A DNA stretch of 63,153 nt from Solirubrobacteraceae bacterium (GTDB lineage: Bacteria > Actinomycetota > Thermoleophilia > Solirubrobacterales > Solirubrobacteraceae): positions 1 through 63,153 of the forward strand of contig JAICYC010000012.1 of assembly GCA_025934395.1 (NCBI GenBank), read 5' to 3'. Positions within the stretch are counted from its first letter, which is position 1; each line of letters opens with the position of its first letter. Shown piece by piece: positions 1,236-50,504 of the stretch. The translations under genes were made by a program, and so were the position numbers. The notes beneath the pieces are model-generated. The model was not told the origin of the DNA, made no database searches, and was given only the letters and a program-made list of their open reading frames with translations.

Positions 1236-2036
1236 ATGGCCACCGCCGCCGCACCCAACGTGGGCGAGATGCTCCGCACCTGGCGCCGCCGCCGCAGCCT
1301 CAGCCAGCTCGATCTGGCGCTCGACGCGGAGGTCTCCTCGCGCCACGTGAGCTTCCTGGAGACGGGCCGCTCACGCCCGAGCCGGGAGATGCTGCTGCAC
1401 CTCGCCGAGCACCTCGAGGTGCCGCTGCGGGAGCGCAACGCGCTGCTGCTCGCAGCCGGCTACGCGCCCGCGTACGGCGAGCGCTCGCTCGATGAGCCCG
1501 AGATGGAGCCCGCGCGCCTCGCGCTCGACCGCTTCCTGAGCGCCCACGAGCCGTACCCGGCGGTGGTGCTCGACCGCCGCTACAACCTGCTCGCGGGCAA
1601 CGACGCCTCGCAGCTGCTGATCGGCGAGGTCGACCCGGAGCTGCTCGAACCGCCCGCGAACGCGCTGCGCGTGACGCTGCACCCCCGCGGGATGGCCCCG
1701 CGCGTGCTCAACCTCGATGAATGGAGCGCCCACCTGCTCGCGCGCCTTCGCCGCCAGGCGCAGATCACCGGCGACCTCGAGCTCTCGCGCCTGCACGCCG
1801 AGCTCGCCGCCTACCCGGGCGTGGTCTCCGAGGCGCCGCACGAGGGGATCGCCACGGCCGACATCGTGCTGCCGCTGCGGATGCGCGACGGCGATCGCGA
1901 GCTGACGTTCTTCAGCACCGTCTCCACGTTCGGCACGGCCGTGGACGTCACGCTCGCCGAGCTCTCGATCGAGGCGTTCTACCCCGCCAACGCGAGCACC
2001 GCCCAGCGCCTGCTCGCGGACATCGGCGTCGGCTGA
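1236..2036 (+). CDS. XRE-family regulator with MmyB-like ligand-binding domain
   Basis: 266-residue transcription regulator. Residues about 9-65 form an XRE helix-turn-helix (GEMLRTWRRRRSLSQLDLAL, with SSRHVSFLETGRSRPSREML as the recognition region). The remainder (about 95-260) matches the MmyB-like PAS-type ligand-binding region common in actinomycete regulators, with the typical YPAVVLDRRYNLLAGND and FFSTVSTFGTAVDVTLAELS segments. It is divergent from the SnoaL-like gene and could regulate it, which is an inference from layout. The ATG at 1236 is chosen over a GTG six bases upstream because of the -10 element. Confidence 0.85.
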   Translation: MATAAAPNVGEMLRTWRRRRSLSQLDLALDAEVSSRHVSFLETGRSRPSREMLLHLAEHLEVPLRERNALLLAAGYAPAYGERSLDEPEMEPARLALDRFLSAHEPYPAVVLDRRYNLLAGNDASQLLIGEVDPELLEPPANALRVTLHPRGMAPRVLNLDEWSAHLLARLRRQAQITGDLELSRLHAELAAYPGVVSEAPHEGIATADIVLPLRMRDGDRELTFFSTVSTFGTAVDVTLAELSIEAFYPANASTAQRLLADIGVG

Positions 2037-2065
2037 CCGCGCGGCGAGCCGCATCCGGGTGCCGC

Positions 2066-2071
2066 TAGGGT
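2066..2071 (+). promoter_or_regulatory. -10 element of leaderless promoter, DUF5996 gene
   Basis: TAGGGT lies 7 nt before the ATG at 2079, so the transcript should begin at or next to that codon. This excludes the GTG at 2070. Confidence 0.55.
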
Positions 2072-2078
2072 GGTCCCG

Positions 2079-2996
2079 ATGGACGGCTGGCGCGCGACGC
2101 GGTACTCGGCGTGGCAGGCGACGTGCGACACGCTGCACGCGCACACGCAGGTGCTCGGAAAGCTGTGCGTCGCCCTCGCCCCGCCAGAGCCGGAGCTGCT
2201 GCACGCGGCGCTCCGTCTCACCGCGCGCGGATGGGAGACGCGGCCGCTGCCCGCGCCGGACCGCAGCGGTGCGCTGCTCGTGGCGCTCGACCTGCGTCGC
2301 CACGAGGCGGTCGCCGAACACTCCGACGGGCGCTCCGCGCGTGTTCCGCTCGCGCCCGACCGGTCGGTGGGCGAGGTCACGCGCGAGCTGCTGGCGGCGC
2401 TCGGAAGCCTCGGAGGCGAGGTCGCGATCAACGCGACGCCGCAGGAGGTGCCATGGGAAGTGGCGCTCGATCGGGACGAGCAGCACGCGACCTACGACGC
2501 CGGCCAGGTGGAGGAGTACTTCGCCGCCGCCACCCGCGCCGCGCTTGTGCTCGAGGAGTTCCGTGCTCCCTACCGCGGGCGCTCGACCGCGGTGAACGCC
2601 TGGTGGGGGTCGTTCGACCTCGCCGTGAGCCTGTTCACCGGCGAGCCCGCCGAGCCGCCCTCACAGGACTTCATCATGCGCAACGCGATGGACGCCCAGG
2701 AGGTCGCGGTCGGCTGGTGGCCGGGCGACTCCCGCTACGACGCGCCGGCCCTGTACGCGTACGCGCATCCCGCGCCGGACGGCTTCGGCGGGGCCACGCT
2801 GCAGCCGCCGCAGGCGCGCTGGGAGGACGAGCTCGGCGAGTTCGTCCTGGACTGGCGCGACGTGGGCGCGAGCGAGGACCCCCACGGGCAGGCGGTGCGG
2901 TTCCTGCGCTCGGCGTTCGATCACGCGTGCGAGGTGTGCGATTGGGACGACAGCCTGCGCGCGAGCGTCGCGGGCTCGCCGCCGCCGATCCGCTGA
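2079..2996 (+). CDS. DUF5996 family protein
   Basis: 305-residue soluble protein of the uncharacterised DUF5996 family, recognised from its order of conserved segments. These are an N-terminal ATCDTLHAHTQVLGKL region, the middle VNAWWGSFDLAVSLFTGEPA, then NAMDAQEVAVGWWPGDSRY, and FVLDWRDVG near the end. No signal peptide, membrane segment or known catalytic motif is visible. It stands alone between the XRE regulator and a convergent MFS gene. Function is unknown. Confidence 0.8.
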   Translation: MDGWRATRYSAWQATCDTLHAHTQVLGKLCVALAPPEPELLHAALRLTARGWETRPLPAPDRSGALLVALDLRRHEAVAEHSDGRSARVPLAPDRSVGEVTRELLAALGSLGGEVAINATPQEVPWEVALDRDEQHATYDAGQVEEYFAAATRAALVLEEFRAPYRGRSTAVNAWWGSFDLAVSLFTGEPAEPPSQDFIMRNAMDAQEVAVGWWPGDSRYDAPALYAYAHPAPDGFGGATLQPPQARWEDELGEFVLDWRDVGASEDPHGQAVRFLRSAFDHACEVCDWDDSLRASVAGSPPPIR

Positions 2997-14832: not shown

Positions 14833-15192
14833 TCAGGACTCTTCGCGGCCCGCGCTGCCGGAGCCGGCGCCGGGGTCGGCTCCGGGCCGCTCCTGCTCGG
14901 CTCCGGGCCCCTCCTGCGCGTCATCGGGCCGCTTCGGCGCGTCGTCGGGCGGCGCCTGCGCGGCAGCGGGCCGCTTCGGCGGGATCTCGGGGATCGCGCC
15001 GGGGTCGGCCGCCTCGGCGGCGGCGCGGTTCTCCTCGCGGACCGCGAGCCAGATCTCCTCGCGGTAGATCGACACGCCCGACGGCGCTTCGATGCCGAGG
15101 CGCACGGTGTGCCCGCTCACGCTCATCACCGTCACGAGAACCTCGTCGCCGATCACGACGCGCTCTCCCGGACGACGCGTCAGGATCAGCAT
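14833..15192 (-). CDS. csrA: Carbon storage regulator CsrA with long C-terminal tail
   Basis: Post-transcriptional regulator that binds ANGGA hairpins in mRNA leaders. Residues 1-55 are a standard CsrA core ([18 protein letters not shown], then [19 protein letters not shown]). The RNA-contact residues L4, R6 and R44 are kept. Residues about 56-119 form a proline-, alanine- and aspartate-rich, probably disordered tail that ordinary 60-75-residue CsrA proteins lack. The gene is last in the flgG-to-fliW direction, 67 bases after fliW, and has its own candidate leaderless promoter, so it may be made outside the flagellar cascade. It is expected to repress flagellin translation and be opposed by FliW. 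Confidence 0.92.
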
Positions 15193-15259: not shown

Positions 15260-15742
15260 CTAGGCTGCGCCGGCGGACGTGGCGGTGCCGGCGGGCGGCG
15301 CGGGAGCCTGGGCCCCGGGAGCGAGCTCGAACAGCGGCGCGCGAAGCGGTGCGTCGGCGGCGGCGTTGATCACCTGGTAGCCGTTCCCGCCGGCGAGCAC
15401 GAGCGGCGCGCGCAGGTTGGCGGTGATGTCGAGCGGGTTGGGCGTTGCGCGGACCGTCACCAGCACCCGCGCGCCCGTGGCGTCGGCGATGCCGGTGCGC
15501 TCCTGGTCCTCGGGTGCGATCTCCAGCGTGAAGCCATCGAAGAACTGCTGCGGCGAGACCACCGGCAGCGCGAGCGCAGCGTCCTCGACGCAGTGCAGCC
15601 ACAAGAAGCCGGTCCCGGGGTTGCGGTCGAGCAGCGCGTAGCTGGAGCCGCCGAGGCCGATGAGGCCGAAGGGGAACGCGAACACGTCCTCCTCGTCCAC
15701 CTCGACCGGGCCGAAACGTACGCTGTCGAACTTGACTGGCAT
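15260..15742 (-). CDS. fliW: Flagellar assembly factor FliW
   Basis: 160-residue FliW. In Bacillus this protein binds either flagellin or CsrA and so relieves CsrA repression when cytoplasmic flagellin is low. The family pattern is visible: VKFDSVRFGPVEVDEEDVFA, FPFGLIGLGG, FLWLHCVEDAALALPVVSP and the TVRATPNPLDITANLRAPLV segment. The last about 20 residues are an Ala/Pro tail. It follows flgL by 12 bases and precedes csrA, the same order as in Bacillus (flgL-fliW-csrA), although here flagellin is 33 kb away. Confidence 0.93.
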   Translation of the reverse strand: MPVKFDSVRFGPVEVDEEDVFAFPFGLIGLGGSSYALLDRNPGTGFLWLHCVEDAALALPVVSPQQFFDGFTLEIAPEDQERTGIADATGARVLVTVRATPNPLDITANLRAPLVLAGGNGYQVINAAADAPLRAPLFELAPGAQAPAPPAGTATSAGAA

Positions 15743-20563: not shown

Positions 20564-20590
20564 TAGTCGGCCGCGCCCAGCGAACCTTTA
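20564..20590 (-). promoter_or_regulatory. Sigma-28 promoter, flgF
   Basis: Minus strand TAAAGGTT (20583-20590), 11-nt spacer, GCCGACTA (20564-20571), 10 nt before the flgF ATG. Nearly leaderless. Confidence 0.75.
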
Positions 20591-23482: not shown

Positions 23483-23509
23483 TCAACTTTGCCGGCCGTG
23501 AGCCGATGA
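23483..23509 (+). promoter_or_regulatory. Sigma-28 promoter, fliS-fliT
   Basis: TCAACTTT (23483-23490), 11-nt spacer, GCCGATGA (23502-23509). The -10 element covers an in-frame ATG at 23506, so the real fliS start must be the ATG at 23521. Confidence 0.7.
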
Positions 23510-24251: not shown

Positions 24252-24278
24252 TAAAGATCGCCGCGTTGCGGCCGATCA
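24252..24278 (+). promoter_or_regulatory. Sigma-28 promoter, flgB-flgC-fliE-fliF-fliG-fliH-fliI
   Basis: TAAAGATC (24252-24259), 11-nt spacer, GCCGATCA (24271-24278). It lies upstream of the basal-body unit. This means even the earliest structural genes appear to use the sigma-28 type of promoter. Confidence 0.75.
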
Positions 24279-30272: not shown

Positions 30273-30299
30273 TAAAGAAGTCCCGTGAGCGGCCGATAA
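30273..30299 (+). promoter_or_regulatory. Sigma-28 promoter, fliJ through flgE
   Basis: TAAAGAAG (30273-30280), 11-nt spacer, GCCGATAA (30292-30299), eight bases before the ATG at 30308. A near-perfect match that gives a leaderless fliJ transcript. Confidence 0.8.
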
Positions 30300-42825: not shown

Positions 42826-44879
42826 ACGGCACCACCGGGGTGCGCAGGCTGCTGCGCCACACGGACATGCTCGCCGCGGTCGCGGTGGTGATGGTCGTGA
42901 CGATGCTCGTGGTGCCGCTGCCCGCGCCCGTGCTCGACCTGCTCATCACGGTGAACATCTCCGCTGCGCTGACGATCGTGGCGGCGACGATGTACCTCGG
43001 GCGCCCGCTCGACTTCGCCTCGTTCCCGAGCCTGCTGCTCCTCACGACGATGTTCCGGCTCGCGATCAACGTCTCGGTCACGCGCCTGATCCTCACCACC
43101 GGCGACGCCGGCAGCGTGGTGAAGGCGTTCGGGGCCTTCGTCGTGAGCGGCAACGTGGTGGTCGGCCTCGTGATCTTCCTGATCCTCGTGGTGATCCAGT
43201 TCGTCGTGGTCACCAACGGCGCCGGGCGCGTCGCAGAGGTGGGCGCCCGCTTCACGCTCGACGCGATGCCGGGCAAGCAGATGGCGATCGACGCCGACCT
43301 GAACGCGGGCCTCATCACCGACGACCAGGCGCGCGACCGCCGCTCGGAGATCGCCCGCGAGGCGGACTTCTACGGCGCGATGGACGGCGCGTCGAAGTTC
43401 GTCAAAGGCGATGCGATGGCGGCTGTCGTGATCACCGCGATCAACCTCATCGGCGGGATCGTCGTGGGCATGCTCCAGCACCACCTCGGCTTCAGCGAAG
43501 CCACCCAGCAGTTCTCGCTGCTGACGGTCGGGGACGGTCTCGCCGCGCAGATCCCCGCGCTGCTGATCTCGGTCGCCACGGGCATCATCGTCACCCGCGC
43601 CGCGTCCGACCGCGACCTCGGCAGCGACATCGCATCGCAGATCCTGCGCCAGCGCAAGGCGCCGCTCGTGGCGGCCGGTGCGATCGGCGCGTTCGCGCTG
43701 ATCCCCGGCCTGCCGAAGCTCCCGTTCCTGTTCATCGCCGCGATCTTCGGCGCGGTCGGCTGGGCGGCGCGCAACGGGCTGCCCGACGCGCGGGAGGAGG
43801 ACGCCGCGAAGAAGCCCGCGCTGCCGGCCGGCGGCGAGGAGCCCATCTCCGAGGTCGGCATCGACGCGCTGGAGCTCTCGATCGGCTTCGGGCTGGTGCC
43901 GCTCGTCGACGGCAACTCCGGCGGGGCGCTGCTGCGGCGCGTGAGCATGATCCGCCGCCAGATCGCCGCTGACCTCGGGCTCGTGATCCCGCCCGTGCGG
44001 ATCCACGACGAGCTCGGCATGGAGTCGCACGAGTACGTCGTCAAGGTGCGCGGCTCGGAGGTCGCGCGCGGGCGGATCATGCCCGGGCACCTGCTCGCGA
44101 TGGACCCCGGCGACGCAGCGGGCACGCTCCAGGGCATCCGCACACGCGAGCCGGCGTTCGGCCTCGACGCCGTCTGGGTCCACGAGTCCGTGCGCGCCGA
44201 GGCCGAATCGCTCGGCTACACGGTCGTGGACGTGGAGTCGGTGATCGTCACCCACCTCACCGAGGTGATCCGCCAGCACGCGGCCGAGCTGCTCACGCGC
44301 CAGGACGTGCGCGCGCTCCTGGACAACCTCAAGCAGACCAACGCGGCGGTCGTCGAGGAGGTCGTGCCCGAGGCCCTGTCGCTCGGCGAGATCCAGCGGG
44401 TGCTGCAGTCGCTGCTCGGCGAAGGCGTGCCGATCCGCGACCTCGGCACGATCATCGAGGCGATCGGCGACAAGGCTCGTACAACGCGTGACACCGGTCT
44501 GCTTTCCGAGTACGCTCGCCAGGCGCTGGGCAGGGCGATCACCGCTCCCCACCTCGACGAGCAGCTCCGACTGCAGGCGATAACGCTCGACCCGGCGATC
44601 GAGCAGGAGGTATCCACGTCGATCACCCAGACCACCGACGGTGAGTACCTCGCGATGGAGCCCCCGCGGGCCCAGGCGATCGTCAACGCCCTGAAAGCGC
44701 AGGTCGAGCACGCCGCGGCGGGCCGCGCCGGGCGCACGCCGGTGCTGCTCTGCTCGGCCCGGATCCGCCGGCACCTCCGACGGCTGATCGCGCAGGCCCA
44801 GCCGCATCTGGCGGTCTGCTCCTACAACGAGATCGCCCCCGGCGTGAGCGTTGAAACGGTCGGAGTGATCCACGCATGA
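42822..44879 (+). CDS. flhA: Flagellar export protein FlhA
   Basis: 685-residue export gate protein. The N-terminal half has eight expected membrane helices, with FPSLLLLTTMFRLAINVSVT, the FHIPEP-loop region (GARFTLDAMPGKQMAIDADL) and DDQARDRRSEIAREADFYGA followed by MDGASKFVKGDA. The C-terminal cytoplasmic domain begins ISEVGIDALELSIGFGLVPL and ends RRHLRRLIAQAQPHLAVCSY. Length and motifs are standard. It overlaps flhB and flhF by four bases each. Confidence 0.95.
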   Translation: MNGTTGVRRLLRHTDMLAAVAVVMVVTMLVVPLPAPVLDLLITVNISAALTIVAATMYLGRPLDFASFPSLLLLTTMFRLAINVSVTRLILTTGDAGSVVKAFGAFVVSGNVVVGLVIFLILVVIQFVVVTNGAGRVAEVGARFTLDAMPGKQMAIDADLNAGLITDDQARDRRSEIAREADFYGAMDGASKFVKGDAMAAVVITAINLIGGIVVGMLQHHLGFSEATQQFSLLTVGDGLAAQIPALLISVATGIIVTRAASDRDLGSDIASQILRQRKAPLVAAGAIGAFALIPGLPKLPFLFIAAIFGAVGWAARNGLPDAREEDAAKKPALPAGGEEPISEVGIDALELSIGFGLVPLVDGNSGGALLRRVSMIRRQIAADLGLVIPPVRIHDELGMESHEYVVKVRGSEVARGRIMPGHLLAMDPGDAAGTLQGIRTREPAFGLDAVWVHESVRAEAESLGYTVVDVESVIVTHLTEVIRQHAAELLTRQDVRALLDNLKQTNAAVVEEVVPEALSLGEIQRVLQSLLGEGVPIRDLGTIIEAIGDKARTTRDTGLLSEYARQALGRAITAPHLDEQLRLQAITLDPAIEQEVSTSITQTTDGEYLAMEPPRAQAIVNALKAQVEHAAAGRAGRTPVLLCSARIRRHLRRLIAQAQPHLAVCSYNEIAPGVSVETVGVIHA

Positions 44880-46549
44880 GCGCTCCCCGCGATCCGTTCG
44901 AGGCGTTCGAGCGCGAGGCGCGCGCGAGGCTCGGCGCCGCGCCCGGGCGAGACGGGTCACAGGTCCGCACCTACCGCGGGCGCACCGTCGAGGAGCTGAT
45001 CCCGCAGATCGAACGCGACTTCGGCGCGGACGCCCTGATCGTGCGCAGGCGCGAAGGCCTCCGCGGCGGCGTGCTGGGCTTCTTCCAGCACGCGTTCGTG
45101 GAGATCGAGGCGATGCCCGGCACGCCTCGTCTGGACCTCTACGACGACCCCGAGGACGCCGCGCCGCGGTCGCCTGTCGTGCGCGAGGAGCCCGCGCCCG
45201 CAGCTGCGCCCTCGGTCCCGCCGCTCGCGACCTCCGGAGCGGGCGCGACGTACCCCCCGGCGATGCACGCCTACGGCGCCGCCTCCGCGGGGCCGCCACA
45301 GCTCGCGCCGCCCCTGACCCCGAACTACGACCCCCACCAGCCACCTGCGAGCGCAGCCCCGGCGCCTTCCGATCCGGCCGTGGCGACGCTCCCTGCCGCG
45401 CCACCCGCGCCGCCCGGCCCGTGGGGGGACCCCGCCCCGCTCGACGCGCCGGCCGCGCTCCCGGGCCAGCAGATCTCGGGTGCGGGCCTGCCCACGCAGG
45501 ACGCACGCCGTGCCGCGTACGCTACCGGCGCCCCGCCGCCCGCGGTGCCGCAGCGCCGAGACGACTTCGGCTCCTACGTGACCCCCGAGCTCGCCGCGCT
45601 CGCCCGTGCCGAGCACGCCCGGGTGCCGCGCCCGGAGCCGGCGAGGCCGCCGGCGCCTGGCGCAGCGCCGAGCGTCGACTTCCAGGAGCTGCTCGGCCCC
45701 GAGTCCGAGCGCCCCACCGGCCGCAGCGAGCCGCTCGCCCCGCCGTTGCGTGCGTCGTTGGAGCGACGCACCGTCGTCGCGGGCTCGCACGGCAGAGCCC
45801 GGGCGGGCGTGCTCCGCAGCCTGCGCCGCTACGGGATCAGCGAGGAGTTCGCGCTGGAGCTGATCGCCGCAGCGAGCGCCCACACCCTGCCGCTCTCACC
45901 GCGCGCGGGGCTCGCCCAGGCGGTGCGCAGCACGCTCGTGCAGCGCATCCCGGTGGTCGCTCCGATGCCCGCCAAGGGCGCGGCGGTTCTCGTGCTCGGC
46001 CCCGGCGGGGCGGGCAAGACGACCGTCTGCGCGACGCTGCTCGACGCATACCGCGCCGGCAGCACGCTGCGCGCGAGCTACGCCACGCTGATCCGGCCCG
46101 CGGACGCCGAGGAGCTCTCGATCCTGCTCGCACCGCAGATCCTCGAGCCCGCCCGCGCGGGCGCGGTGCGCTCGCAGCGCGCCCTGCACAAGGCGCGCAC
46201 CGACGGGCTCGCGATCCTCGACACCCCGTCCCTGTCGCCCACCGACCGCACGGGCATCCGGGCGCTCGCGACGCTGGTCGCCGAGGTCCAGCCCGAGCGC
46301 GTGATCGTCGCCCTGCCCGCGACGCTGGGCGCCGCGCCCGCGCACCAGCTGCTCGAGGCGCTGGCGCCTCTCGCAGCCAACTCGCTGGCGGTCACGCACG
46401 CCGAGGAGACCGACCAGATCGGCGTTGCGGTGGAGGCGGCGTGCCGGCACGGGATCGCGCCCGAGTACCTGCTCGATCGCGCTCCCTCCAGCGGCTGGCG
46501 GCTGCAGCGCGCCGACCCGGCCGAGCTCGCCGCGAGGATCCTCCCGTGA
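44876..46549 (+). CDS. flhF: FlhF-like SRP-type GTPase, degenerate nucleotide site
   Basis: 557 residues. The N-terminal RTYRGRTVEELIPQIERDFG and ADALIVRRREGLRGGVLGFF match FlhF. Residues about 90-285 are a Pro/Ala-rich linker. The SRP-like NG domain starts near 290, with the P-loop LVLGPGGAGKTTVCATLLDA intact. The usual DTAGR is DTPSLS, and the base-specific TKLDE is THAEE (SLAVTHAEETDQIG). GTP selectivity or hydrolysis is therefore doubtful. In other bacteria FlhF sets flagellar number and place together with FlhG, but no flhG follows here; PilZ genes do. Confidence 0.82.
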   Translation: MSAPRDPFEAFEREARARLGAAPGRDGSQVRTYRGRTVEELIPQIERDFGADALIVRRREGLRGGVLGFFQHAFVEIEAMPGTPRLDLYDDPEDAAPRSPVVREEPAPAAAPSVPPLATSGAGATYPPAMHAYGAASAGPPQLAPPLTPNYDPHQPPASAAPAPSDPAVATLPAAPPAPPGPWGDPAPLDAPAALPGQQISGAGLPTQDARRAAYATGAPPPAVPQRRDDFGSYVTPELAALARAEHARVPRPEPARPPAPGAAPSVDFQELLGPESERPTGRSEPLAPPLRASLERRTVVAGSHGRARAGVLRSLRRYGISEEFALELIAAASAHTLPLSPRAGLAQAVRSTLVQRIPVVAPMPAKGAAVLVLGPGGAGKTTVCATLLDAYRAGSTLRASYATLIRPADAEELSILLAPQILEPARAGAVRSQRALHKARTDGLAILDTPSLSPTDRTGIRALATLVAEVQPERVIVALPATLGAAPAHQLLEALAPLAANSLAVTHAEETDQIGVAVEAACRHGIAPEYLLDRAPSSGWRLQRADPAELAARILP

Positions 46550-47184
46550 AGCTCGGCAGGGGAAAGCCGCGCAGCACAGCCCCGCTCGCGCTCCCGGAGC
46601 GCTCTACGAACGTGACCGTGCGTACCCCCGAGGGAGGGAGCATCCCCGCGGTGGTGATCGAGCAGTCTCCCGACGAGGTGCTGGTGGCCATCACGGTGCC
46701 CACCAAGCCGCTCACGGAGCGCCAGCTCGAAGGGCTCGTGCTCGAATACCACAACGATCGCGGCCGGGTGCGGCTGCAGGGCACGTTCTCGGTCGACCCC
46801 ACCGACACGGATGTGATGTGCATGGCCGAACCCCGCTCGGTCGAGGTGCTGCAGGAGCGAAGCTACGTCCGCATCCAGGCGGCGCGGCCCGTGGTCGTGT
46901 ACGGGACCCCCGCGAGCGGCGACGTGCAGAGCTTCACGGTGGACCTCTCCGGCGGCGGCTTCCTGCTCGCGGGCGGCGACCGCCTGCCGATCGGCCAGGA
47001 GGTGCGTTTCCGGCTGTCGATCACCTCTGACGCCCTGCCCGTCACGGGCACCGGCCGCGTGGTGCGCGTCGACAGCCTCGGAAGGCGCGGCGTGGAGTTC
47101 GAGTCGATCAGCGACCTCGATCGCAGGCGGCTCGTGCGATTCATCTTCGAGTGCCAGCGTGCCGAAAGGAAACGTGGACTCTAG
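46546..47184 (+). CDS. PilZ domain protein (YcgR-like), copy 1
   Basis: 212 residues. The N-terminal beta domain (NVTVRTPEGGSIPAVVIEQS, then GLVLEYHNDRGRVRLQGTF) resembles the YcgR flagellar-brake N-domain. The C-terminal PilZ domain keeps both cyclic-di-GMP motifs: RSYVR in the RxxxR position and DLSGGG in the DxSxxG position. It probably binds cyclic di-GMP and acts on the motor or export apparatus. The GTG overlaps the flhF stop. It has a diverged paralogue two genes downstream. Confidence 0.88.
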   Translation: MKLGRGKPRSTAPLALPERSTNVTVRTPEGGSIPAVVIEQSPDEVLVAITVPTKPLTERQLEGLVLEYHNDRGRVRLQGTFSVDPTDTDVMCMAEPRSVEVLQERSYVRIQAARPVVVYGTPASGDVQSFTVDLSGGGFLLAGGDRLPIGQEVRFRLSITSDALPVTGTGRVVRVDSLGRRGVEFESISDLDRRRLVRFIFECQRAERKRGL

Positions 47185-47198
47185 GTCCGAGGACATCC

Positions 47199-47633
47199 AT
47201 GGCGTCTGACGAGACAACCGAGATGGCGGCGGTGGAGCCGCCCAAGGAGAAGAAGCAGAAGCGCGCCAAGAAGGACAAGGGCGCCGGCGCCGCTGCGAGC
47301 GTCGAGAACGGTGGGCCGAACGTGGCCGCCCACCCGCGAGCGGCGCGGTCGATCGCGCGCGCGAAGGGATGGGGCGGGCGGGTCGGCTTCTTCGTGGCGG
47401 GCTACCTGTCGCTGCCCACCGGCACGCTGGCCACAGCGGGCCTGCGGGCGCTGATCGCGGGCGTGGTCTGCTACGTCGCGTGCTGGGCCGCCGCGGTGTT
47501 CGTGTGGCGCAGGCTGGTGATCCTCGAGATCAAGGGCCGCGAGCAGCAGCTGCTCGCGGAGCTCCTCGCCCGGCACGCGCCCCGCGCGGCGGGCGCAGCG
47601 ACGGCCCGGTCTGGAGCGCAGGATGCGCCGTGA
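47199..47633 (+). CDS. Small membrane protein between two PilZ genes
   Basis: 144 residues, no family recognised. The N-terminal 30 residues are strongly Lys/Glu-rich (PPKEKKQKRAKKDKGAG). Two hydrophobic segments follow near residues 60-80 (GRVGFFVAGYLSLPTGTLAT) and 84-102 (LIAGVVCYVACWAAAVFVW). A short helical tail (ILEIKGREQQLLAELLARH) ends the protein. The position between two PilZ genes suggests a membrane partner for them. The start ATG follows a GAGGA ribosome-binding site, and the stop overlaps the next GTG. Confidence 0.72.
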   Translation: MASDETTEMAAVEPPKEKKQKRAKKDKGAGAAASVENGGPNVAAHPRAARSIARAKGWGGRVGFFVAGYLSLPTGTLATAGLRALIAGVVCYVACWAAAVFVWRRLVILEIKGREQQLLAELLARHAPRAAGAATARSGAQDAP

Positions 47634-48343
47634 GGGCTCCACGTCTGCATCGACGTGCCTTGGACGCGCAGCGTGAGCAGCAGCGCGAGCTGAGCCATCA
47701 CGAGCTCGCGGTCGAGCGCGCTCCGCGACCGATCTGGCTGCCCGCCGCGCACGAGCCGGTGACGCTCACGCTCGGCAACGGCGAGAAGCTCCCCGCGCGC
47801 GTCACCGAGCGCGACGCGGACTCGCTGAGCGCCGCCGTGATCGTGCCCACGAACCCCAGCGACAAGGCGCTGCGCGTGATCGTGCTCGAACACGCCAACC
47901 CGGGAGGGCTGGTGCGCCTGCTGGGCCGCACGACGGTCACACGCACCGAGGACGGCCTGCTCGTGCGCATCGACGAGCCGCAGCTGATCGAGGTGGTCCA
48001 GGAGCGCGCACACGTGCGCGTGAACGTGCGCTGCGCGATCACGCTGACCGCCACCGAGAGCGGCGAGGTCACGCAGACCTACACCGCCGACCTCAGCGCG
48101 GGAGGAGCTTTGCTCGCGGACGCGAACGTCGCTTCCGTGGGTGATCAGCTGACGTTCGAGCTCGCGATCACAGCCGGGCAGTCACCCGTCAGGGGGACCG
48201 CCGAGGTCGCCCGGATCGACGGCCAGGGCCGCGCGGGGCTGTACTTCGTCGACCTCCCCAGCTTCGAGCGCTGGCGCCTGATCCGCTTCACCCTCGAGTG
48301 CCAGGAAGGCGAACACGAACGCCACGCCGAAGGGGGGCGCTGA
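47630..48343 (+). CDS. PilZ domain protein (YcgR-like), copy 2
   Basis: 237 residues. After a charged N-terminal helix (ALDAQREQQRELSHHELAVE), a YcgR-like beta domain (VTLTLGNGEKLPARVTERDA) leads into a PilZ domain. That domain has RAHVR and DLSAGG as the two cyclic-di-GMP-binding motifs. It ends in RLIRFTLECQEGEHERHAEG, parallel to RLVRFIFECQRAERKRGL in copy 1, so the two arose by duplication. The GTG start overlaps the membrane protein gene. Confidence 0.86.
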   Translation: MRAPRLHRRALDAQREQQRELSHHELAVERAPRPIWLPAAHEPVTLTLGNGEKLPARVTERDADSLSAAVIVPTNPSDKALRVIVLEHANPGGLVRLLGRTTVTRTEDGLLVRIDEPQLIEVVQERAHVRVNVRCAITLTATESGEVTQTYTADLSAGGALLADANVASVGDQLTFELAITAGQSPVRGTAEVARIDGQGRAGLYFVDLPSFERWRLIRFTLECQEGEHERHAEGGR

Positions 48344-48378
48344 GATGCTCTCCTCGCACGAGCACTAGGAGCACGCCA

Positions 48379-48588
48379 ATGGACCCGATCGGACCGATCC
48401 TCCCGTCCAGATCCACGCGCCCCGGCGAAAGCCCCGAGCGGGTGGAGCGGCTGGAGCGGATCACACGCGAGCGCGACCGGCCCGCCGCCGACCGCCGCGG
48501 CGCCCGGCGCCGCGAGCCGCCGCCGCCGGGCCCCACCGTGCCGCCCGAGGACGACGACGGGCAGCCGCGCATCGACGTGCGCGTCTGA
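48379..48588 (+). CDS. Small hydrophilic protein upstream of flagellin
   Basis: 69 residues, Arg/Pro-rich with a short helix (ESPERVERLERITRERDRPA) and an acidic end (PPEDDDGQPRIDVRV). A GGAG ribosome-binding site eight bases before the ATG and its place at the end of the flhF-PilZ unit support a real gene. There is no recognised family and no signal peptide. It could also be a chance frame in GC-rich DNA. Confidence 0.45.
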   Translation: MDPIGPILPSRSTRPGESPERVERLERITRERDRPAADRRGARRREPPPPGPTVPPEDDDGQPRIDVRV

Positions 48589-48644
48589 GTCCCTCGCCGT
48601 CCCCCGCTTCGCGCGCCGCCGGCCAGAGCCCCCGCAGTCACGGC

Positions 48645-48671
48645 TCAAGTTTCCCTGCGCGCGGCCGATAT
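48645..48671 (+). promoter_or_regulatory. Sigma-28 promoter of flagellin
   Basis: TCAAGTTT (48645-48652), 11-nt spacer, GCCGATAT (48664-48671). The best -35 match of the set. The leader to the ATG at 48737 is about 59 nt. Confidence 0.82.
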
Positions 48672-48680
48672 TCGCACTGG

Positions 48681-48697
48681 GTCGACATGGAGTCGGC
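48681..48697 (+). promoter_or_regulatory. CsrA-type hairpin 1 in the flagellin leader
   Basis: GTCGAC / GTCGGC six-pair stem (one G-T pair) around an ATGGA loop, 39 bases before the ATG. This corresponds in position to the upstream CsrA site in the Bacillus hag leader. Confidence 0.65.
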
Positions 48698-48717
48698 TCG
48701 GGACCACCTCAACCACG

Positions 48718-48732
48718 TCATCAAGGAGATGA
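48718..48732 (+). promoter_or_regulatory. CsrA-type hairpin 2 over the flagellin ribosome-binding site
   Basis: TCATC / GATGA perfect 5-bp stem around an AAGGA loop, ending four bases before the ATG at 48737. AAGGA is both the ribosome-binding site and the CsrA core. Binding here would block flagellin translation. Confidence 0.7.
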
Positions 48733-48736
48733 ACGC

Positions 48737-49522
48737 ATGTCCCTCACCGTGAACACGAACATCGAGGCGATGGATGCAGCCCGGAACCTCAACACGACGG
48801 AGTCCGCGCTGGCAACCCAGATGCAGCGCCTGTCGTCCGGTCTTCGCATCAACTCCGCCGCCGACGACGTCGCCGGCTACGCCATCGCTCAGCGCCTCCA
48901 GGCCCAGGTCAACGGCCTGAACCAGGCGACGCTGAACACGCAGGACGCTGTCGCCCTCGCGCAGACGGGCCTCGGCTCGCTGAACGACGTCGAGAACATG
49001 CTGCAGCGCATCCGCGAGCTCGCAGTCGAGTACGCGAACGGCACGACCTCCGAATCGGACAAGGAAGCGATCGAAAACGAGGTCACGCAGCTCAAAGAAG
49101 AGATCACGCGCGTGGGTGAAACCACGAAGTTCAACGGCGTGGAACTCCTGAAAGGCGGCGAAGAAATCGTCTTCCAGGTCGGTGCCAACGAAGAAGAAAC
49201 GATCGGCGTCAAAACCGTCGAACTCGAAACCGCCGTCGAAGCAGTCGAAGTGAAGGAAATCAAAACGGTCGAAGAAGCGATCGAAAAAGTCGCGACCGCC
49301 GCTGGTGAATACGGCGCGGTGCAGGACCGTATTGAATTCGCTCGCGCGAACCTGGAAGTGTACAGCCAGAACCTGTCCTCGGCGACGAGCGGAATCGTCG
49401 ACGTGAACATGGCCACCGAAATGACCGCGTTCACGAAGGACCAGGTGCTTCAGCAGGCTGGCGTCGCGATTCTCGCGCAGGCCAACCAGCTGCCGGACGC
49501 TGTCCTTCACCTGATCGAATAA
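48737..49522 (+). CDS. hag: Flagellin
   Basis: 261-residue filament subunit. The conserved N-terminal helices are TVNTNIEAMDAARNLNTTES, MQRLSSGLRINSAADDVAGY and AIAQRLQAQVNGLNQATLNT. The C-terminal helices are VQDRIEFARANLEVYSQNLS and MATEMTAFTKDQVLQQAGVA, ending in the ANQLPDAVLHLIE export end. The central domain is minimal, about 55 residues of Glu/Val/Lys-rich sequence (ETIGVKTVELETAVEAVEVK). Glu codons in the middle are almost all GAA. It has its own sigma-28 promoter and two CsrA-type leader hairpins. No second flagellin gene lies in the window. Confidence 0.95.
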   Translation: MSLTVNTNIEAMDAARNLNTTESALATQMQRLSSGLRINSAADDVAGYAIAQRLQAQVNGLNQATLNTQDAVALAQTGLGSLNDVENMLQRIRELAVEYANGTTSESDKEAIENEVTQLKEEITRVGETTKFNGVELLKGGEEIVFQVGANEEETIGVKTVELETAVEAVEVKEIKTVEEAIEKVATAAGEYGAVQDRIEFARANLEVYSQNLSSATSGIVDVNMATEMTAFTKDQVLQQAGVAILAQANQLPDAVLHLIE

Positions 49523-49535
49523 GCCACATCTTCCT

Positions 49536-49566
49536 CAGCGGTGACGTCCTCGTGGCGTCACCGCTG
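49536..49566 (+). terminator. First hairpin after flagellin
   Basis: Perfect 11-bp stem CAGCGGTGACG / CGTCACCGCTG with a nine-base loop, 14 bases after the flagellin stop, without a T-run. It may protect or partly terminate the transcript. Confidence 0.5.
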
Positions 49567-49696
49567 CAGTGAAGCCGGCCCGGCCGTCGGCCGACCTCCG
49601 GTCGGTGACTTCGACAGGGCTGGTCTACAACGCTTCGGGCGGTCGGCTAGACCGGCGGAAGCCATATACCGCCGATTCATCGAGGGAACGGTGGTT
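49567..49696 (+). other. Structured spacer between the two flagellin hairpins
   Basis: 130 bases with no convincing gene. They contain a CCGACC-TCC-GGTCGG hairpin near 49592 and a long-range pair GGTCTA / TAGACC flanking a GC-rich region near 49622-49655. They end at the strong terminator. This may be a stable 3' fragment or small RNA. Confidence 0.35.
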
Positions 49697-49729
49697 GGAC
49701 GGGCGGCGACGGCCGCCCGTCCTTTTTTT
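49697..49729 (+). terminator. Rho-independent terminator of flagellin
   Basis: GGACGGGCGG / CCGCCCGTCC, 10-bp stem with a six-base loop, followed by seven T. The only classical T-run terminator found in the window, fitting a very highly expressed gene. Confidence 0.9.
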
Positions 49730-49746
49730 AACCGTCCACGCACCGC

Positions 49747-49773
49747 TCAACCCCACGCGCCGCCGGCCGATTA
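49747..49773 (+). promoter_or_regulatory. Sigma-28 promoter, CHAP hydrolase
   Basis: TCAACCCC (49747-49754), 11-nt spacer, GCCGATTA (49766-49773), eight bases before the ATG at 49782. It should give a leaderless transcript and puts the hydrolase in the flagellar regulon. Confidence 0.68.
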
Positions 49774-49781
49774 CCGTGTGG

Positions 49782-50504
49782 ATGTCGATCCAGGCGGTGA
49801 CGGCGCGCGTCCAGGAACTGCGCCAGCAGCTCACGGACCCCGCGGAGCTGGTCAACGGACCCCAGCCCCGAGCGGGCGCCAGCGCCTCGCCGGCGGGCGG
49901 CGCGCAGTTCGCCAGCGCGCTCGCGCAGGCGAGCGGCTCATACCCCGCCACGGCGGCGAACGCAGCGCTCGGCGCGAGCTACGGCTCCCCGCAGCTCGCC
50001 GCGCTGGGCTCCTCCTACGCGAGCCCGCCGGGCGGCCTTGCGGGACTCTCGGGCGCGGCGCCGGGCGGCGCCGGCTCGCGCATCGTGGCAGCGGCGGAAA
50101 GCCAGATCGGGCAGGCCGAGCAGCCGCCCGGGTCAAACGAATCGCCGGCGATCGCCGAATACCGCAGCGCGACGGCGGGCGCGGTGCCCGGCGCGCCGTG
50201 GTGCGCGTACTTCGCCTCCTGGGCCGCGCGCGCGGCGGGGGAGCCGATCGGATCCGGCGGCCAGGGCCTCGGCTCGGTGAGCGAGATCTGGTCGTGGGCG
50301 CAGAGCACCGGGCGCGCGCTCCCCAACGGCCCGGGCGTGGTCCCCAAGCCCGGTGACCTGATCGTCTTCGGCGGCGAGCACGTGGGGATCGTTCGCGGCG
50401 TGCTGCCGGGCGGGGAGATCTCCACGATCGAGGGCAACTACGAGAACAAGGTCTCAACGAACACGCGCAGCGCGAGCGAAGCGACCGGCTACGTGAGCAT
50501 GTAG
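49782..50504 (+). CDS. CHAP-domain peptidoglycan hydrolase of the flagellar regulon
   Basis: 240 residues. Residues about 105-235 are a CHAP/NlpC-like amidase or endopeptidase domain. The catalytic Cys is in APWCAYFASWAARAAGE, the His in GGEHVGIVRGVL, and the acidic partner in STIEGNYENK. It lacks a Sec signal peptide; the N-terminus is a helix (IQAVTARVQELRQQLTDPA) similar to that of the lytic transglycosylase at 30757, then an Ala/Gly/Ser-rich linker. A sigma-28 promoter implies late flagellar timing. A GTG at 49776 is an alternative start. It probably remodels the wall during flagellum growth. Confidence 0.85.
   Translation: MSIQAVTARVQELRQQLTDPAELVNGPQPRAGASASPAGGAQFASALAQASGSYPATAANAALGASYGSPQLAALGSSYASPPGGLAGLSGAAPGGAGSRIVAAAESQIGQAEQPPGSNESPAIAEYRSATAGAVPGAPWCAYFASWAARAAGEPIGSGGQGLGSVSEIWSWAQSTGRALPNGPGVVPKPGDLIVFGGEHVGIVRGVLPGGEISTIEGNYENKVSTNTRSASEATGYVSM

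Follow-up and report, generated by a model that had tools for sequence, protein, structure and literature searches.

The flagellin mRNA of the Solirubrobacteraceae bacterium analyzed here probably carries a leader controlled by CsrA and FliW, with a long-range helix that would close the start region in members of the order Solirubrobacterales. The DNA under study is a stretch of 63,153 nucleotides (hereafter, the window). The leader sequence and its conservation, the covariation of its stems, the restriction of strong matches to flagellin genes, and the co-occurrence with fliW were all observed directly in this analysis. The features concerned are as follows.

14833..15192, minus strand: csrA, 119 aa; PF02599 over cut-off; residues R6, R44, V51, and N55
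15260..15742, minus strand: fliW, 160 aa; PF02623 over cut-off; PDB relative 5dmb_A, E 1.1e-06
20564-20590 (minus strand) and 23483-23509, 24252-24278, and 30273-30299 (plus strand): further sigma-28-like sites, consensus matches with 3 mismatches
48645..48671, plus strand: sigma-28-like promoter, TCAAGTTT-N11-GCCGATAT, 14/16 consensus bases
48681..48697, plus strand: hairpin 1, GUCGAC-AUGGA-GUCGGC, with arms that covary in the order; likely the first CsrA site
48700..48704, plus strand: GGGAC box, complement of GUCCC (48739-48743); hairpin 1 can instead be lengthened by the first two box bases
48718..48732, plus strand: hairpin 2, with a loop formed by the Shine-Dalgarno AAGGA and with covarying arms; likely the second CsrA site
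48737..49522, plus strand: flagellin gene, 261 aa; Flagellin_N and Flagellin_C over Pfam cut-offs
48739..48743, plus strand: GUCCC, partner of the box, spanning the final G of AUG, the whole Ser codon UCC, and the C that opens codon 3

Both ANGGA hairpins lie between the sigma-28-like promoter and the flagellin ATG (48737-48739). The promoter differs at two positions from the sigma-28 consensus, which we take to be TAAAGTTT-N11-GCCGATAA, and zero matches of this quality were expected in shuffled sequence; a zero-mismatch result obtained with a pattern derived from the window itself is circular and was not counted as a test. The four further sites in the window stand at three mismatches from the same assumed consensus, with none expected by chance. 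At the DNA level, hairpin 1 consists of GTCGAC (48681-48686), ATGGA (48687-48691), and GTCGGC (48692-48697), and its stem can be extended to 10 pairs (48677-48701). Hairpin 2 consists of TCATC (48718-48722), AAGGA (48723-48727), and GATGA (48728-48732); its predicted fold (48716-48735) pairs CGUCAUC, across the AAGGA loop, with GAUG and ACG, which are separated by a bulged A. Four bases lie between GATGA and the ATG. The two loops are the two GGA sites of the leader, the latter lying over the Shine-Dalgarno sequence. The initial annotation had placed the two hairpins exactly to the base and had identified the second with the ribosome-binding site four bases before the ATG, with which our coordinates agree; it had overlooked the third part of the leader, the GGGAC box. 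A search of Rfam 15 with positions 48300-49900 gave no match in the leader, its three matches at E ≤ 5 all lying outside the leader and below the gathering score.

The surroundings of the flagellin gene include two PilZ-domain genes directly 5′ of it (46552-47181 and 47600-48340, plus strand), preceded by a gene (44876-46549) encoding an SRP54-type GTPase domain, and, on the 3′ side, a strong terminator-like hairpin with a run of seven T after it (49697-49722). The PilZ genes may point to a link between c-di-GMP and the flagellum.

The window also encodes both proteins of the putative switch, as had been annotated, each over its Pfam cut-off and located behind a flgL-like gene on the minus strand. 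R6 of CsrA is an RNA-binding residue, and the window copy keeps R6 and R44, again as annotated, alongside V51 and N55. A role of R44 in RNA binding is described in PMC7829508, as is, for Campylobacter and B. subtilis, the dependence of FliW binding on N55. All 10 fliW-linked CsrA proteins read in relatives carry R6, R44, N55, and V or I at position 51. Most genomes of the order that were searched contain a second CsrA, encoded away from fliW, which keeps R6 and R44; N55 is found in only two of nine such proteins of relatives (L346-L362, even numbers), and the second CsrA of the window's own genome (L198, positions 1981-2250, minus strand, G000:C116) has T55. Because it usually lacks N55, the second CsrA is perhaps free of FliW control, and the fliW-linked copy is accordingly the better candidate for the switch. 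In one genome (G007), the sole CsrA, encoded 10 kb from fliW, has N55.

Sites of the form ANGGA are rarer in the window than expected (204 on both strands, against a shuffle mean of 309), and only 7 of these 204 sit in a 5-nt loop closed by a perfect stem of 5 or more pairs (counting G-U), the leader pair being two of the seven. The folding energy of the single window leader is unremarkable (z of -0.25 and -0.57, and -0.71 to +0.27 for four other assumed 5′ ends), so that the evidence consists of the motif, its place, and comparison with other genomes. Upstream regions were read for 146 of the 166 flagellin matches used, among the matches listed. When a hairpin was defined as an ANGGA 5-nt loop on a stem of at least 4 pairs, 136 distinct flagellin-family upstream regions yielded 50 with a hairpin at -95 to -20, 36 with one at the Shine-Dalgarno sequence, and 24 with both, while dinucleotide shuffles of the same regions gave 0.71% and 0.19% for the upstream and Shine-Dalgarno hairpins, respectively.

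A looser rule (GGA in a 4-7 nt loop, with a stem of at least 6 pairs upstream or at least 4 at the Shine-Dalgarno sequence) was applied by protein family and by gene neighborhood, a flagellin being called csrA-linked if it follows csrA within 500 nt in the same orientation. Linkage was scored against 66 csrA places taken from the longer list of a search of 80 of the 88 flagellin genomes, with CsrA matched in 73 of those 80. The upstream hairpin was present in csrA-unlinked flagellins of families f1 (46/57), f2 (3/3), f3 (9/9), f7 (7/10), f10 (5/5), f12 (4/7), f5 (2/8), and f11 (0/2), as compared to 5/34 csrA-linked flagellins and 2.5-6.1% of shuffles; flgL gave 0/7, these being the own-genus flgL matches alone, excluded by eye and including one misoriented row (G308:C60). 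The Shine-Dalgarno hairpin was present in f1 (43/57), f2 (0/3), f3 (7/9), and f7 (9/10), with 13/34 in csrA-linked flagellins and 5-11% in shuffles. Under the same rule, 24 leaders from other classes of the phylum had 10 upstream hairpins, 12 Shine-Dalgarno hairpins, and 5 with both (shuffles: 5.5%, 7.2%, and 0.14%).

Pairing of the hairpin arms was assessed in an arm-swap test on 69 csrA-unlinked flagellin leaders of Solirubrobacterales, in which ANGGA was located regardless of pairing and was found upstream in 61 leaders and at the Shine-Dalgarno sequence in 64. For hairpin 1, a leader's own arms formed 5.93 of 7 pairs on average, versus 5.08 for swapped arms; for hairpin 2, the values were 3.72 versus 2.95 of 5, and for neither hairpin did any of 400 swaps reach the real value. 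When each genus was represented by a single leader (17 for each hairpin), 0/400 swaps equaled the real arms for hairpin 1 and 4/400 for hairpin 2. An alignment of 63 rows (A1) shows changes on both sides at all 7 pairs of helix 1, with 96.1% of cells pairing, and RNAalifold recovered from it helix 1 and no other helix. Since 59 of the 63 rows had been picked for a perfect stem of at least 6 pairs (the other 4 being added without a stem filter), pairing in A1 is biased, and the arm-swap test was relied on instead. Eight of the 69 leaders lack the upstream ANGGA, two of them retaining an AGGA tetraloop, and the GGA loop has disappeared from three copies in the order (G404:C232 and one each in G198 and G208). 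Apart from these three losses, the loops of the flagellin leader appear to have been conserved by evolution in Solirubrobacterales. The initial annotation had looked to related leaders for conserved loops and compensatory stem changes, and both stems indeed covary in the 69 unselected leaders.

The GGGAC box would add a second layer of pairing, in this instance with the coding sequence. Across 88 leaders with the element, GGGAC occurs in 61 of the 70 that precede a Ser TCC second codon versus 2 of the 18 that do not. Leaders with Gly GGC have GCCC in 10 of 12 cases (nine in genus g15 and one in G244) versus 6 of 70 TCC leaders, and those with Ala GCC have GGGC in 3 of 4 cases versus none of 70; in one Gly leader (G214), the box reads GGGCC and pairs with the register shifted. 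Because MAFFT misplaced the box in several rows, it was tested via start swaps: own starts scored 13.36, as compared to 11.57 for swapped ones, with 0/500 swaps as good, and when each combination of genus and codon was represented by a single leader (26 units), 4/4000 swaps were as good over 20 draws. Later coding windows fitted the box at 2.2 to 8.5, against 13.5. Asking which of four starts fits best is a weaker test, since the own codon was the single best for 56/70 TCC and 9/12 GGC leaders but for 0/4 GCC leaders. Complementarity of the box to its own codons 1-3, changing with codon 2, is found across the class, with exceptions: two genomes of the window's genus, G404 (Gly) and G338 (Ala), retain GGGAC with a non-matching second codon, and a fitting box is missing in G003 and in one gene of G234. 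The 24 leaders from other classes of the phylum gave no box signal (432/1000 swaps as good).

We read the box, which mostly changes with codon 2, as a putative start-codon clamp. A less probable alternative is that the leader is a known type of two-site CsrA target in which GGGAC is either an additional, third contact through GGA or a relic, and in which TCC reflects start-proximal codon preference. GGGAC does contain GGA, and this alternative would accommodate the retention of the box in G404 and G338, the missing signal in other classes, and the predicted folds, in which the long-range helix appears in 7 of 12 leaders and is missing from 5 (L272, L132, L186, L191, and the window RNA from 48676). 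For the window RNA, the helix is predicted with 5′ ends at 48678-48680 and not at 48676 or 48677, since with either of the latter two the first two bases of the box are drawn into hairpin 1. Against a mere GGA contact, the box of genus g15 is GCCC, which lacks GGA and matches Gly GGC, and GGGC likewise accompanies Ala GCC in three of four leaders. A general codon preference fits poorly with the use of TCC for Ser2, which is universal in the element genes read (63/63) but occurs in 11/22 csrA-linked and 4/16 other flagellins, and the start-swap tests also speak against this alternative. On balance, we lean toward a three-part RNA leader in Solirubrobacterales and some other Thermoleophilia, in which the box would pair with the first codons, codon 2 would be chosen for folding, and the resulting helix would clamp the start and place both GGA loops in advance for a single CsrA dimer, whose binding would lock a half-closed structure.

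Codon 3 of the element flagellins is also skewed: Leu3 is encoded by CTT in 56 of 75 genes, whereas at positions 5-20 CTT accounts for 8 of 150 Leu codons (element genes and csrA-linked genes combined).

To define the distribution of the element, a covariance model (R1) was used. At least 87 of 399 Thermoleophilia genomes have Flagellin_N matches, as do 7 of 24 genomes of the window's genus, and R1 gave 102 matches at E ≤ 1e-4 in 61 of the 399. Every one of these 102 strong matches precedes a flagellin: 89 adjoin flagellin matches listed, and the other 13 open with a flagellin start, called from its translation and not from Pfam, several being truncated by contig ends. Four weak matches in the class were read, one of which precedes a flagellin (L195) and three of which do not (L194, L196, and L197). 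All 61 element genomes have a flagellin, and 59 have a FliW match, the two exceptions (G316 and G328) being less than 90% complete. Among the matches listed, the element occurs in 55 of 59 flagellin genomes of Solirubrobacterales and in 6 of 28 elsewhere in the class. In a scan of 396 genomes of the phylum, strong matches were confined to 5 genomes of the same class; at E ≤ 0.01, 7 of the 396 had matches, the two from outside the class (E of 0.003 and 0.008) having been inspected as sequence. Genomes keeping fliW but losing the loops had been named in the initial annotation as evidence against the switch, and in part they exist: of the 78 class genomes that have both flagellin and fliW, 19 lack an R1 match. 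Of these 19, 17 fall outside the order, and some fliW-bearing families without a match have differently built GGA hairpins (f10, f12, and f5; unlinked leaders).

The same data bear on the improbable case that the hairpins work without CsrA, the second hiding the ribosome-binding site and the first protecting the 5′ end, with effects on translation or mRNA stability. The Shine-Dalgarno sequence does lie within hairpin 2, and its CsrA site is putative, but the ANGGA loop persists in 61 of 69 leaders despite changing arms, and strong matches occur only before flagellins, in genomes nearly all of which have fliW. That the near-palindrome of hairpin 1, an inverted repeat just 3′ of the promoter, is an operator bound at the DNA level by a transcription factor is hardly credible and was set aside, given that the arm letters change together and G-U pairs are common in the (mostly stem-selected) alignment, that the unselected arm-swap test supports RNA pairing, and that GGA stays on the mRNA strand throughout the leaders listed. 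The interpretation of the leader as a target of CsrA and FliW, by contrast, is supported comparatively by the covariation, the placement of all strong matches before flagellins, the near-constant presence of FliW, and the residues R6, R44, V51, and N55 of the fliW-linked CsrA.

Flagellin paralogs differ in carriage of the element: it is present in 1 of 35 csrA-linked flagellins and in 88 of 124 other flagellin matches (7 flgL set aside), with 0/22 versus 79/87 within the order, where the two copies of G404, which was outside the R1 class scan, are tallied as lacking the element though they resemble it. The csrA-linked flagellins may ride on the fliW-csrA transcript and so escape leader control. 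The stricter proposition that csrA-linked flagellins never have GGA hairpins was refuted by the 5 of 34 found under the looser rule, all in family f5, although two of the five, at -94 and -100, possibly arose by chance. In f5, it is the linked copies that hold the hairpin, three of them at -56 (L090, L113, and L142: CGCA-CGGA-TGCG, with CGGA in the loop, 56 nt upstream), and control in this family may sit on the other, csrA-linked paralog. Genomes of genus g15 (G234, G380, G310, and G157) contain arrays of up to nine flagellin-family matches per genome, with the leader element repeated before most copies.

In the mechanism that we propose, the flagellin leader, of about 59 nt from its presumed transcript start, would serve as a translation switch operated by CsrA. 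A single CsrA dimer would grip the ANGGA loop in hairpin 1 together with the loop in hairpin 2 that contains the Shine-Dalgarno sequence, thereby keeping ribosomes off, and FliW, free during flagellin export, would bind CsrA around residue 55 and lift the block. We infer this binding, repression, and relief by analogy, the bridging dimer and its removal by FliW being modeled on flaA and hag. The GGGAC-GUCCC helix across the start codon would close a domain around the Shine-Dalgarno hairpin, cover part of the AUG, and set the two GGA loops side by side.

The nearest architectural match is the flaA leader of Campylobacter jejuni, described as 45 nt long with two ANGGA-loop stem-loops, the second at the ribosome-binding site, with compensatory changes in other species and with FliW antagonizing CsrA (PMC4894983). 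CsrA binding, footprint, and repression were demonstrated for flaA, whereas CsrA binding and repression are predicted for the window leader, and Campylobacter belongs to a different phylum. Furthermore, the available text of that report mentions no helix between leader and start codon and describes a third GGA, at codon 2, as unprotected (PMC4894983). The hag leader of B. subtilis likewise has one site upstream (BS1) and one over the Shine-Dalgarno sequence (BS2), with repression relieved by FliW (PMC7652899, PMC8523840); control of hag was established by experiment, while that of the window leader is predicted by comparison. The glgC leader of E. coli resembles our model in that one CsrA dimer bridges a high-affinity hairpin and a Shine-Dalgarno site, but glgC does not encode a flagellin, and CsrA is antagonized there by small RNAs rather than FliW (PMC7652899).

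The initial annotation had anticipated a notable extension to actinomycetes, which holds for the RNA-level evidence but was preceded by two proposals. In 2008, CsrA control of flagellin was proposed for Kineococcus radiotolerans from a Shine-Dalgarno site sharing 9 of 12 bases with B. subtilis BS2, a proposal that, in the available text, concerns one site in one genome, with no hairpins, covariation, or fliW (PMC2587704). For Actinobacteria, gene content had prompted the proposal that FliW acts on CsrA (PMC4682653), and a survey of actinobacterial flagella searched for CsrA and FliW along with other genes (PMC10746217). No report of two covarying hairpins or of a start-codon box in Actinomycetota was found in a literature search that covered a minority of subscription journals.

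The FliW-CsrA-flagellin switch has been studied experimentally in Bacillus, Clostridioides, and Campylobacter, and these results would extend it to a deep class of Actinomycetota with RNA-level evidence, beyond gene presence or a single site. The putative pairing of leader with coding sequence, which would constrain codon 2, is a new part. The covariance model R1 marks flagellins under putative leader control, and it reveals a contrast between paralogs within single genomes, where csrA-linked copies nearly always lack the element. Such an extension fits the idea that control of flagellin is an old role of CsrA.
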